From: Rhodoferax bucti
GTDB lineage: Bacteria; Pseudomonadota; Gammaproteobacteria; Burkholderiales; Burkholderiaceae_C
DNA: 64,000 bases
Direction of reading: 5' to 3'
Assembly: GCF_005876985.1 (NCBI RefSeq)
Contig: NZ_VAHD01000005.1
Location: 1 to 64,000 of the forward strand
Shown: positions 52,945 to 58,900 of the stretch, one piece after another
How the letters are laid out: each line of letters opens with the position of its first letter
Numbering within the stretch: the first letter of the stretch is position 1
Made by a program: the position numbers and the translations under genes
The notes under the pieces: generated by a model
The model's input: only the letters and a program-made list of their open reading frames with translations
Told to the model about the DNA's origin: nothing
Databases searched by the model: none

Positions 52945-55900
52945 ATGACCCAGGGCACCATCCGCATTCGCGGGGCGCGACAGCACAATCTCAAGAACCT
53001 TGATCTGGACATCCGCACGGGTGAGCTGACCGTGGTTACCGGGCCCAGCGGCTCGGGTAAATCCAGTCTGGTGTTCGACACGCTGTACGCCGAGGGTCAG
53101 CGCCGCTACGTGGAGACCTTCAGCGCCTATGCGCGCCAGTTTCTGGACCGCATGGACAAACCGGCGGTGGACAAGGTGGAGGGTGTGCCCCCCGCGATTG
53201 CGATTGACCAGACCAACCCGGTGCGCTCCAGCCGCTCCACCGTGGGCACGATGACGGAGCTCAACGACCACCTCAAGCTCCTGTTTTCCCGTGCGGGTAG
53301 CCTGTTTGACAAAGACACCGCGCTTCCGGTGCAGCACGATACCCCCGAGACGATTTACAGCACGCTGCTGCAGCGCGCCGCGGCCGAAGGCAATCCCCGC
53401 TTGGTGCTAACCTTTCCGGTCGAGCTGCCTGGCAACGCCACCCCGGATGAAGTAACCCAGTGGCTGAGCGCTAGCGGCTTCACCCGGGTACAGGCGGAGC
53501 GGGAGGTGTCGACTGTCAATGGCGTGCGCAAGGTGTTGGACGTCGTGGCCGACCGCTTCCGTATCGAGGGTGTGGAGAAAGTGCGGGCCCTGGAAGCCAT
53601 TGAGACCTCGCTCAAGCGCGGTAGCGGGCGTTTGAATGTTTACGTGTCCAAAGAGGCGGTGGCGCAGGTGGAGTATGCGCAAGCAGCTCCTGAAATCATA
53701 GCAAACGCAGCCCCGGAGGTTTGGTGCTTCTCCACGGGCCTGCATTGCCCGCAGAGCGATATCCGCTACACCGACCCGATTGCGTCCATGTTCAGCTTCA
53801 ACTCGGCGGTGGGCGCCTGCGATGCCTGCCGCGGGTTCGGGCGCGTGGTCGGGGTGGACTATGGCTTGGTCATCCCCAACGACAAACTCACCCTGCGCGC
53901 TGGCGCAGTCAAGCCCATGCAGACGCCGGCTTGGCAAGAGTGCCAGGACGACCTGATGCGCCACGCCGAGGCCAGCGGCATACCGCGCGACACGCCTTGG
54001 TACAAGCTCACCCAGGAGCAAAAGCACTGGGTGCTCAAGGGCTCACCGAACTGGAACGGCAAGTGGAACCAGCACTGGTTCGGTGTGGACCGCTTCTTTG
54101 AGTACCTGGAGACCAAGGCTTACAAGATGCACATCCGTGTGCTCTTGTCCAAGTACCGCAGTTACACGACTTGCCCGACCTGCAATGGCTCGCGCCTGAA
54201 GACCGAGAGTCTGCTCTGGCGCATTGGCACCAAGGACCAGGCCGATATGGCGCTGGACCCGACCAAGCGCTTCATGCCTAAGGGCGTGAAGTGGTCTCGT
54301 GAGCAACTGGAAGCGCTGCCCGGCTTGTCGCTGCACGATTTGATGCTGATGCCATTGGATCGACTCAAGAGGTTTTTTGATGCGCTGCAATCCGATTTGG
54401 GCATTTTTGGGGGGGCGGAGTCCGGGGTGCCGGCAGTGGCCTCATCAACTCGCTTTGCGAGTAGCAAATCGGCCACCGCCGGCACCCCGGACTCCGCGTT
54501 GCGTTCGGAAGATGCCGCGCCGGATGCGGTGTCTGCGGTAGTTCTCTCCACTGATGGCGAAGCCGAAGGCAGGGAAGCGCCGGGTGACGATTTGGCAGTT
54601 GCGCAGCAAATGCATGAGGAGCTCGGCGCTTCCCTGCCTGCGGCCCCCTCGGAGAAAGCCGCCAACGCACCCACCGCATCTGAAGCCGAGCACAAAACCC
54701 TCAAGCTCTTGTTTGAAGAGGTCGGCACCCGCCTCAAATACCTGTGCGATGTAGGCATTGGCTACCTCACGCTGGACCGCCAGAGCCGCACCCTCAGTGG
54801 CGGTGAGGTGCAGCGCATCAACCTCACTACCGCGCTGGGCACCTCGTTGGTGAACACCCTGTTCGTGCTGGACGAGCCCAGCATCGGCCTGCACCCGCGT
54901 GACATGAACCGCATCATCGTGGCCATGCAGCGCTTGCGCGATGCGGGCAATACGCTGGTGGTGGTGGAGCATGACCCGGCCGTGATGCTGGCGGCCGACC
55001 GCATGATTGACATGGGCCCCGGCCCGGGCGAGAAGGGCGGCCAGATCGTGTTTGACGGCACCACCGAGGCCCTCAAGGGCGCAGACACCATGACCGGCGC
55101 TTACCTGGGCGGTCGCAAGCAGGTGGGCATGGGGTTCAAGCGCATGGTCGCACCCAACAACCCGCGCCTGATTCTGGAGGGCGTGACCGAGCACAACCTC
55201 AAAAATGTCTCGGTGGAAATTCCGCTGCAGCGTTTGGTCTGCGTGACAGGTGTGTCCGGTTCCGGCAAGTCCACGCTGATTCAGGATGTGCTGGCCCCCG
55301 CCTTGTTGCGTCACTTCGGCAAAGCCACCGAAACACCGGGCGCCCACACCAGCCTGTTGGGTGCGGAGCAGCTCAGCGACATGGTGTTTGTGGACCAGTC
55401 GCCCATTGGTAAAACGGCGCGATCCAACCCGGTGAGCTACGTCGGCGCGTGGGACGCGATCCGCGAGTTGTTTGCTGGCGCCGCCTTGTCCAGGGAGCGC
55501 AGCTATACCGCCGCCAAGTTCAGCTTCAACAGTGGTGATGGCCGTTGCCCCACTTGCGGTGGTTCGGGTTTTGAACACGTGGAAATGCAGTTCCTGAGCG
55601 ACGTGTATTTGCGCTGCCCGGACTGCGATGGCAAGCGTTACCGCCCCGAGATTCTGGAAGTGACGATTGAGCGCAAGGGCCGCAATGTGAATGTGGCTGA
55701 TGTGCTTGGCTTGACGGTGAGTGAGGCTGCCGATTTGTTTAGTGCGGACCGCGAAGTCATTCGCGTGTTGCAACCTATCGTGGATGTCGGGTTGGAGTAT
55801 GTGAAGCTGGGGCAGCCGGTGCCTACGCTCTCGGGTGGCGAGGCGCAGCGCCTCAAGCTCGCAGGCTTTCTGGCCGAAGCGGCCAAGAGTTCGAGTGCGA

Positions 55901-58900
55901 GCAAGCAGTTGCTGGCGCGCAAGGGTTCGCTGTTCATGCTGGACGAGCCGACCACGGGACTGCACTTTGAAGACATCGCCAAGCTGATGCGGGCCTTGCG
56001 CAAGTTGCTGGACGCCGGGCATTCGCTGGTGGTGATTGAGCACAACCTGGATGTAATTCGTGCGTCTGATTGGCTGATCGATCTGGGGCCTGAGGGGGGC
56101 GATGCGGGCGGGCAGGTGGTGGCCTACGGTACGCCGGAAGACCTGTTGCTGCATGCCACTTCGCACACGGGTAAGGCGTTGCGGGAATACGCAGCGGCCA
56201 TGGGTGTGGTGCATGAGGTGGCGGAGTCGTCGGCCACCTTCACTTCGTTCGCTGCGGCTGATGGACTTGCGCCCGAAGCCTCATCAACTCGCTTCGCGAG
56301 TAGCAAATCGGCCTCGGGCGCAAGCCCATCCACCTCCGGCCCTTTGCTGGCGGACACGTCGAATTCCATTCGTATCGTGAATGCGAAAGAGCACAACCTC
56401 AAGTCGCTGTCTGTGGATATTCCGCGAGGCAAATTCAGTGTGGTGACTGGTGTGTCGGGGTCCGGTAAGTCGACCTTGGCGTTTGACATTCTGTTCAACG
56501 AAGGGCAGCGGCGTTACCTCGAATCCTTGAATGCCTATGCGCGCTCCATCGTGCAACCTGCTGGCCGCCCCGAGGTTGATGCGGTGTATGGCATTCCGCC
56601 CACGGTGGCCATCGAGCAGCGCCTCTCGCGCGGGGGGCGCAAGTCCACGGTGGGCACCACCACTGAGGTGTGGCACTTTCTGCGCTTGTTGTACGTGAAG
56701 CTGGGCACCCAGCATTGTTTTAAGGACGGCGCGGCGGTGGAGCCGCAGTCGGCAGACAGCATTGCGGCCCAGTTGCTTAAGAACTACCGTGGTCAGCACA
56801 TTGGATTGCTGGCGCCGCTGGTCCAGGGGCGCAAGGGCGTGTACACCGAGCTGGCCGACTGGGCGCGGCCCAAGGGTTTCACGCACCTGCGGGTGGACGG
56901 CAACTTCCTGCCCACCAGTGGCTTCCCGCGGATTGATCGTTTCAAGGAGCACAACATCGAGCTGCCCGTGGCCAGCCTCGATGTAACGCCTGCCAACGAG
57001 TCCGCGCTGCGCACTGCGCTGGCTGACGCGCTCACCCACGGCAAGGGTGTGGTCTATGTGCTCAGCGATATTGGCAGTTTGCGTGAGGTGATGGCCGCAG
57101 GCGAGTCTGCGGCTGGTGTGGGCAAGGTGCAGGTGTTTTCTACCAAGCGCGCTTGCCCGGTGTGCGCGACTTCGTATGCCGAGTTGGACCCGCGTTTGTT
57201 CTCGTACAACAGCAAACACGGCTGGTGCCCGGACTGCGTGGGCACGGGCGTGGCGCTCACCAAAGAGCAGCGCAAGGTGTTTGATGACTCGGTCAAGGAC
57301 GACGACAACAAGGGCCGCGAGCAGACCTTTGCCGAAGCCGACATCGAAGACCTCCACGACAAAGCCTGCCCCACCTGCAGTGGCACGCGCTTGAATGCCA
57401 CGGCGCGCAACGTGAAGTTTGCGGGTGTGGGCATTACCGACATTGCACGCCTCTCCGTGACCGATGTGCGCCAGTGGGTGCAGACCCTGCAAGTGGCCGG
57501 CGGCATGACGACCCGCGAGGCCGACATCGCCCGCGATCTGGTGCCCGAGATCCGTAGCCGCCTCGAGTTCTTGGAGGAGGTGGGCTTGGGCTACCTCACG
57601 TTGGACCGTGGCGCGCCCACGCTGAGTGGCGGCGAGGCGCAACGCATCCGTTTGGCTGCGCAGCTGGGTAGCAACCTGCAAGGTGTGTGCTACGTTCTGG
57701 ACGAGCCGACCATTGGCTTGCACGCACGCGACAACAAAATCCTGTTGGGTGCCTTGCAAAGCCTGAGCGACAAGGGCAATACGCTGGTGGTGGTGGAGCA
57801 CGACGAAGACACCATCCGCCATGCGGACCACATCATCGACATCGGGCCGAGTGCGGGCAAGCGCGGCGGGCGGCTGGTGGCGCAGGGGTCGATTGCCGAT
57901 GTGCAGAATGCTGCGGAATCGCAGACCGGGCGGTATCTGTTGCATGCGATGAAGCATCCCTTGGCGCTGCGGCGGGGGATGGTTTCGTTTGCGGAGACAT
58001 TGGTGCTGGACGCGGCGGAGGCGCTTACGCCGGGCGCCTCATACGCTCGCGCTGCGAGCTCCAAATCGGCTTCCGGCGCAAGCACCTCCACCGCGGGTGC
58101 GGGTAAACCTGCGAAGAAACTCAGTGCCAAAGCGCAGAAAGCCGCTGTGGAGGCGGCACGCATTCTGGACAGCGCAGCCGCCAACACGGAGCTAGCAGAA
58201 CGCACCAAAGTAGCCGCCGAGTACGCCGCGCTGGCAGACCGCCGCACCGCCCAAATGTCCATCGCAGCCACGGGCAGCCCGGCAGGGGGCGACGATTTGG
58301 AGCTCGCAAAGCGAGCGTATGAGGAGCCCACTGTCGGGCTGCCTGTGGCGGGCTCAGAAGAAGCGAAGGCATTCAAACCGAAAATCGACTGGCTCACAGT
58401 AAGCAACGCCACCATGCACAACCTGCAAAGCGTTACCGCCCATGTGCCGCTCAAGCGCCTGGTCGCCATCACCGGCGTTAGTGGCTCCGGCAAGTCCACC
58501 CTGGCGCGCGACGTATTGCTGGCCAACGTGCAAACCGCCGTGCAAAAGCGCAGCACCAAAGCGGGCCGCGATGCCTTGGAGGCCGGTGAAAAAATCGACT
58601 GGCTGGGCTGCGAAGGTGTGACGGGTTACGAGTCCATCGACCGCGTGCTCGAAGTGGACCAAACGCCCATCGGCAAAACACCGCGCTCTTGCCCGGCGAC
58701 CTATATTGGCTTCTGGGACACCATCCGCAAACTGTTTGCCGACACGCTGGAAGCCAAGGCGCGCGGCTATGCGTCCAACCGCTTCAGCTTCAACACCGGC
58801 GAAGGCCGCTGCCCCAGCTGCGAAGGGCAGGGCATGCGCACCATCGGCATGAGCTTCCTGCCGGATGTGAAAGTGGTGTGCGAAACCTGCAAGGGCGCCC

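Follow-up and report, generated by a model that had tools for sequence, protein, structure and literature searches.

Hairpin elements in the linkers of UvrA

The 64,000-nucleotide stretch of Rhodoferax bucti DNA analysed here (NCBI RefSeq assembly GCF_005876985.1, contig NZ_VAHD01000005.1, positions 1 to 64,000; hereafter the window) contains a double-length uvrA gene, and the encoded UvrA has three linkers that hold five hairpin elements in frame. A sixth copy is intergenic. These hairpins belong to a dispersed palindromic repeat family, and their mismatches differ between the two strands of the element. The features are as follows.

52945..59445, plus strand: double-length UvrA host gene (open reading frame (ORF) of 2166 aa); NCBIfam UvrA models NF001503/TIGR00630 in several stretches, Pfam UvrA_inter and UvrA_DNA-bind
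54415..54497, plus strand: element 1, linker 1, sense; arms 54415-54440 and 54472-54497, core 54441-54471; 25 of 26 arm positions pair; model E 5.2e-15
54562..54644, minus strand: element 2, antisense in linker 1 and inverted partner of element 1; core 54588-54618; 21 of 26 pair; model E 1.9e-14
56254..56336, plus strand: element 3, linker 2, sense; core 56280-56310; 21 of 26 pair; model E 1e-14
58012..58094, plus strand: element 4, linker 3, sense; core 58038-58068; 21 of 26 pair; model E 1.6e-12
58267..58349, minus strand: element 5, antisense in linker 3 and inverted partner of element 4; core 58293-58323; 21 of 26 pair; model E 1.1e-12
28010..28088, minus strand: element 6, intergenic, with a thiolase gene (26777-27958) on one side and a short-chain dehydrogenase (SDR) gene (28110-28799) on the other; core 28036-28062; 23 of 26 pair; model E 7.6e-7 at 28016-28082

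Pairing was scored over 26 positions on each side of the core. The E values come from a covariance model (R1) built from 26 copies, whose training set includes the five uvrA elements and excludes the intergenic one. The five uvrA hairpins are real and not due to chance; the window has six occurrences of the pattern CTCAT-N{5,24}-AAATCG where 0.25 would be expected, and none of 100 shuffles reached six. A preliminary description of the window had placed the five hairpins at, or a few bases from, these positions. Its paired outer arms of 21-27 bases were recovered by a repeat finder for four of the five elements (21-27 bp, 88-96% complementary). The arms are indeed copy-specific, and the inner stems (ACTCGC/GCGAGT, TTGC/GCAA and GCTCGC/GCGAGC) and the fixed GATTT and ATGA are present as it reported.

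Architecture of the element

The unit measures about 95 bp. Its stem, about 26 bp long, is copy-specific and leads to a fixed asymmetric internal loop, in which TCAT and AAATC are unpaired, and to a small variable hairpin on top. CCTCAT and CAAATCG are kept in all 26 model copies, most of these letters having been demanded by the finding pattern itself; GAAATCG and AAAATCG variants occur among the uvrA copies. The 31-nt core forms an inner stem of at most eight pairs with a three-base loop, and other cores are 22 to 30 nt long. Arm length falls between 24 and 29 bp in 187 of 220 distinct copies, five have no measurable arm, and no fixed motif was found in the flanks or arm ends of the 220.

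A scan for palindromes with arms of at least 18 bp, covering 1.08 Mb of DNA chosen for its elements and including some overlapping loci, returned 217, of which 187 have the core. Inspected by eye, many of the other 30 proved to be variant cores and several were other repeats. The uvrA palindromes of loci L158, L160, L173 and L013 have a variant core in which GTCGCGTAGCT replaces the usual hairpin.

The element is dispersed as a unit

Units of this kind spread singly or as inverted pairs. Genome G343 has five single copies whose homology extends over about 95 bp, in unrelated flanks. Genome G372 has five inverted pairs with homology over about 270 bp, including the spacer ends, at unrelated sites and in both orientations. 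Homology stops about at the palindrome ends, and both arms are common to the copies. Since the dispersed copies are homologous units in unrelated flanks, the arms are part of the element itself and not sequence taken from the flank. The preliminary description had proposed, as one alternative, an insertion process in which flanking DNA supplies the sequence of the opposite arm, as the copy-specific arms first seen would suggest. The shared arms of the G343 singles and G372 pairs contradict this process, as do the arms of orthologous copies, which co-diverge in place, and we consider it very improbable.

With respect to pair geometry, the 57 pattern matches of G372 include adjacent pairs less than 450 bp apart, 18 of them plus-then-minus and one minus-minus; one pair in G343 is minus-then-plus. 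In 15 of 24 inspected stretches the core of at least one copy lies within 80 bp of a gene 3' end predicted by a simple gene caller, and three of the 24 have a copy inside fdsA.

The two arms change in concert

Copies differ in their arms, and the two arms change together. Among the 26 model copies, 25 of 29 pairs changed on both sides, and covariation reached 0.58, compared with 0.16 when shuffled and 0.09-0.15 when slid. Where uvrA sites are orthologous, both members of a pair have changed at 1.95-2.27 times expectation, as against 0.82-1.63 with the partner slid. The dispersed family of G343 shows the same behavior, with 46 of 260 cells changed on both sides (44 of them Watson-Crick in both copies) and 30 on one side. 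For the two elements of G372, 18 and 8 cells changed on both sides, all Watson-Crick, versus 37 and 16 on one side.

Changes of both arms at the same site are also what a purely mutational process would give, in which the likeness of the arms is maintained by hairpin-templated (quasi-palindrome) correction at replication, with no selection or mobility-linked recognition. The reversal of the core at the thiolase/SDR site of genome G354 points the same way. Such upkeep alone, however, yields neither the dispersal of units nor the recurrent internal loop, nor does it produce a strand-specific G.T excess arising from both A:T and G:C pairs (see below). We regard it as quite unlikely to be the whole explanation.

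Copies inside genes

Of 35 uvrA genes compared, 23 carry elements, 80 in total (55 sense and 25 antisense), all in a single codon phase; the original observation that all copies are in frame thus extends well beyond the window. The uvrA genes of L163, L168, L169 and L182 are truncated by contig ends. The phase used is free of stop codons in all 80 copies, in both orientations, and antisense phase 0 is open in none of them. Occupancy varies between relatives. In linker 1, G390 lacks both elements, G299 has only the second and G354 only the first. The uvrA cores tend to be alike within one genome and different between genomes.

A second host is FdsA, the formate dehydrogenase alpha subunit. Of 25 fdsA loci, 10 were usable, as both anchor motifs were required, and in five of these 10 one of the linkers houses an element, which is sense in one locus and antisense in four. 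Its phase, judged by eye from the alignment, is that of the uvrA copies.

In-frame copies that recur at the same linkers might be taken for ordinary coding repeats retained for the peptide they encode. Intergenic copies, however, have the same anatomy, 12 of the 35 uvrA genes have no copy detected by the finder, the two orientations encode different peptides, and the covariation tracks base pairing. Retention for the peptide is therefore, in our judgement, extremely improbable.

The thiolase/SDR interval offers an intergenic comparison. An element occupies it in the window, G217, G345 and G354; in G394, G386 and G339 the interval is short and has none. Between the window and G345 the site differs by one compensated pair. 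At the same site, L193 (from G354) has its core in the opposite orientation to that of the window, with both arms shortened, and L191 (from G217) has an expanded, longer inner hairpin. No intact single arm was seen at the empty sites of uvrA linker 1, thiolase/SDR and fdsA, where linkers and joints align poorly.

Two other repeats were noticed in the window. An intergenic repeat of about 47 bp at 27951-27997 has many copies in other genomes of the genus. A different palindromic repeat at 22770-22845 lies in frame near the start of ORF 22746-23639 (plus strand), a putative thiazole synthase gene; the repeat's copy-specific arms flank the centre GGAGGAGCCCGCNNNGCGGGCGGGGGACACGGAGCA. L005, from the window's own genome, has another copy whose arms differ, so that the repeat follows the same logic as the uvrA elements.

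Mismatches are biased toward one strand of the element

The imperfect pairs in the arms are not distributed evenly between strands. On the strand reading GATTT...ATGAG, G.T mismatches outnumber A.C mismatches by 85 to 25 in uvrA sense copies, 41 to 6 in uvrA antisense copies, 72 to 7 in elements with 24-30-nt cores (arm positions 4-24) and 74 to 12 in other genera (positions 1-24). The excess is found in sense, antisense and intergenic copies alike. The finder scores Watson-Crick pairs only and is strand-neutral.

Mismatches arising on one side show the same excess, with G.T to A.C ratios of 17:1 from A:T majorities and 58:10 from G:C majorities (nominal p 1.4e-4 and 2.4e-9, respectively, the cells not being independent). 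At inherited uvrA sites the ratios are 28:6 for sense and 17:3 for antisense copies. The derived-mismatch and inherited-site counts omit groups of fewer than four members, columns with no Watson-Crick majority and the first three arm positions. Furthermore, folding with DNA parameters favours the GATTT...ATGAG strand over its complement in 213 of 226 elements (50 of 52, 24 of 25 and 139 of 149 in the three sets; 47, 23 and 130 for the arms alone). The non-uvrA set in the mismatch and stability counts retains some uvrA copies from genomes outside the 35. An earlier count had indicated no wobble preference in the arms, with 83 G.U and 100 A.C on the coding strand among 1920 cells, where about 174 of each would be expected at random. 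Sense and antisense copies had been pooled there, and splitting them by element strand reveals the strong bias.

Sense and antisense copies show the same bias, which speaks against selection on uvrA mRNA as the cause, and cytosine damage alone would not yield the G.T excess derived from A:T pairs. The cause is probably a single strand defined by the element itself, DNA being the simpler reading. This supports the suggestion in the preliminary description of selection on a folded nucleic acid, and sharpens it to the GATTT...ATGAG strand regardless of the direction of the host gene.

An RNA-level explanation was also considered, in which the GATTT strand is transcribed and the transcript, whether a small RNA or an intermediate through which the element spreads, is selected to fold. 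A G.T on this strand corresponds to G.U in RNA, and the available text on BRE, the Beta-proteobacterial repeat element that is possibly the same family, reports Bordetella pertussis transcripts of about 80 and 200 nt (PMC3110155). The equal bias in the two orientations, on the other hand, means that the RNA of sense copies must be antisense to uvrA. No Rfam family matched window positions 54000-58800 at gathering score, and at relaxed thresholds 47 of the 49 rows from 15 loci were microRNA hairpins, all below gathering. We consider this explanation unlikely.

Distribution across genomes

The preliminary description had proposed a covariance-model search of related genomes, and had named the absence of copies beyond this locus as an outcome that would refute it. 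The search instead found the copies to be widespread. One genome represented each species. Model matches were found in 79 of 100 genomes of the same genus (E<=0.01) and in 44 of 399 genomes of the same family, covering 25 of 141 genera (E<=1e-4). Beyond the family they become rare. An order-wide sample gave matches in 4 of 399 genomes, three of them same-family, and a class-wide sample in 2 of 369, both same-family. The single extra-family match, in G784, is adjoined by two weaker ones, and two of these three pass the finder. Because only part of the candidates (12, 13 or 50) was scored in each genome, per-genome copy numbers are lower bounds and absence is unproven.

The strict pattern returned eight stretches from a named genome collection, titled Rhodoferax, Comamonadaceae, Burkholderiales or Betaproteobacteria. 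A looser pattern, applied to 299 same-family genomes, gave many chance matches but also, in other genera, copies built to the same plan with different arms and inner stems. A plasmid search with one copy as query gave no match.

Comparison with known repeats

The integron attC site has variable palindromic arms that are kept paired, fixed extrahelical features and one strand that is active as folded single-stranded DNA (ssDNA), with R''/R' core sites (GTTRRRY) at its ends. The present element resembles attC in the first two respects and probably in the third. It differs in that its fixed sequence is central and not at the ends, and no attC-type end motif was found in the 220 copies. Like miniature inverted-repeat transposable elements it has inverted arms, yet no clear target-site duplication appears at the empty and filled joints.

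Similar in size and taxa is BRE (Hot et al. 2011, PMC3110155), which the available parts of that paper describe as 75-91 bp long, GC-rich, mostly intergenic with some copies in coding sequences, and thought to be mobile. It is listed there for Comamonadaceae including Rhodoferax ferrireducens T118 (4 copies) and Polaromonas JS666 (29). Closely spaced copies, as in the G784 match, are a further likeness; the parts of the description at hand do not mention copy-specific paired arms or a strand bias. Compared by description rather than by BRE sequence, the present family may be BRE. Among the open-licence papers searched, no other was recognised as describing the repeat. None of the terms looked for occurs in the accessible text of the RepRanger paper (PMC12306157), and that of the R. 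ferrireducens genome paper (PMC2755013) yielded only CRISPR palindromes.

Repetitive extragenic palindromes (REPs; GTAG and CGTC super-families, BIME/REPIN) invite comparison on several counts. According to the sections available of Di Nocera et al. 2013 (PMC3733652), REPs form inverted dimers near gene 3' ends, some lie in frame within repair genes, among them the uvrA genes of Thioalkalivibrio and Opitutus terrae, and some dimers sit within longer palindromes. The elements described here share the inverted dimers, the gene-end placement and the in-frame repair-gene copies. The core CCTCAT...AAATCGG is also near the CCTC that the CGTC type often reads (PMC3733652), yet here the CC is paired into the arm of about 26 bp. 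As described there, moreover, REPs measure 20-40 bp and have a fixed stem with an unpaired tag at one end, whereas here a copy-specific stem of about 26 bp encloses the core. GTAG REPs flank a Y1 (RAYT) transposase gene and CGTC REPs are not expected to (PMC3733652); no such adjacency was seen at the 10 loci inspected here. The statement in the preliminary description that the hairpins match no REP/BIME family is thus half right, since they are REP-like in these shared features and may be BRE. The Rickettsia palindromic elements, as outlined in the same source (PMC3733652), are likewise in-frame palindromes in many proteins, of another lineage; the likeness is drawn from their description.

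A proposed hairpin model and its weak points

The explanation we favour, with somewhat more confidence than doubt, treats the hairpins as copies of a dispersed palindromic repeat, short and non-autonomous, that Rhodoferax shares with related genera. Its functional form would be the GATTT...ATGAG strand folded as a single strand, most likely of DNA, and a protein acting in trans may recognise the fixed internal loop. Selection for the fold, perhaps with arm-to-arm repair inside the hairpin, could keep the arms matched while their sequence drifts. Many copies lie just past gene ends, and those inside genes are found in frame in flexible linkers, as in UvrA and FdsA. More tentative, and a little short of an even chance in our estimate, is the full proposal of a strand-specific ssDNA hairpin family in Comamonadaceae, in which a loop-recognising protein moves singles and inverted pairs in trans, and hairpin repair together with selection lets paired arms diverge even in uvrA and fdsA linkers.

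Several observations weigh against the model. No mobilising gene was found: of 31 Y1_Tnp matches, the 10 inspected all lack an element within about 1.5 kb. Y1_Tnp matches occur in 25 of 26 genomes searched, including six with no model match (G303, G315, G325, G335, G346 and G349). No clear target duplication is seen at the joints of uvrA linker 1, thiolase/SDR and fdsA, and, because each species is represented by one genome, movement is deduced from dispersal and not seen. Selfish mobility alone leaves the foldability of immobile uvrA copies unexplained, and the model does not account for the likeness of uvrA cores within a genome. The frame pattern by itself needs no special mechanism; stop-free survival accounts for part of it, because the used phase is open in every copy. 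Finally, mismatch cells share ancestry, so that relatedness inflates the counts behind the nominal p values.

The Y1_Tnp (RAYT-like) gene of the 26 genomes often encodes about 240 aa, is usually present once per genome and has no repeat partner that we could see there. Some genome subsets, these 26 among them, were hand-picked rather than random.

Implications

The presence of both orientations in one gene allows the effects of mRNA, replication strand and element strand to be separated, and the mismatches point to the element's own strand. In-frame uvrA palindromes, known from Thioalkalivibrio and Opitutus in the available text of PMC3733652, are extended here to another lineage, and fdsA is added as a host. 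The search for a mobiliser also becomes concrete: the candidate would be a protein that binds, on one strand, a DNA stem of about 26 bp carrying the TCAT/AAATC internal loop.

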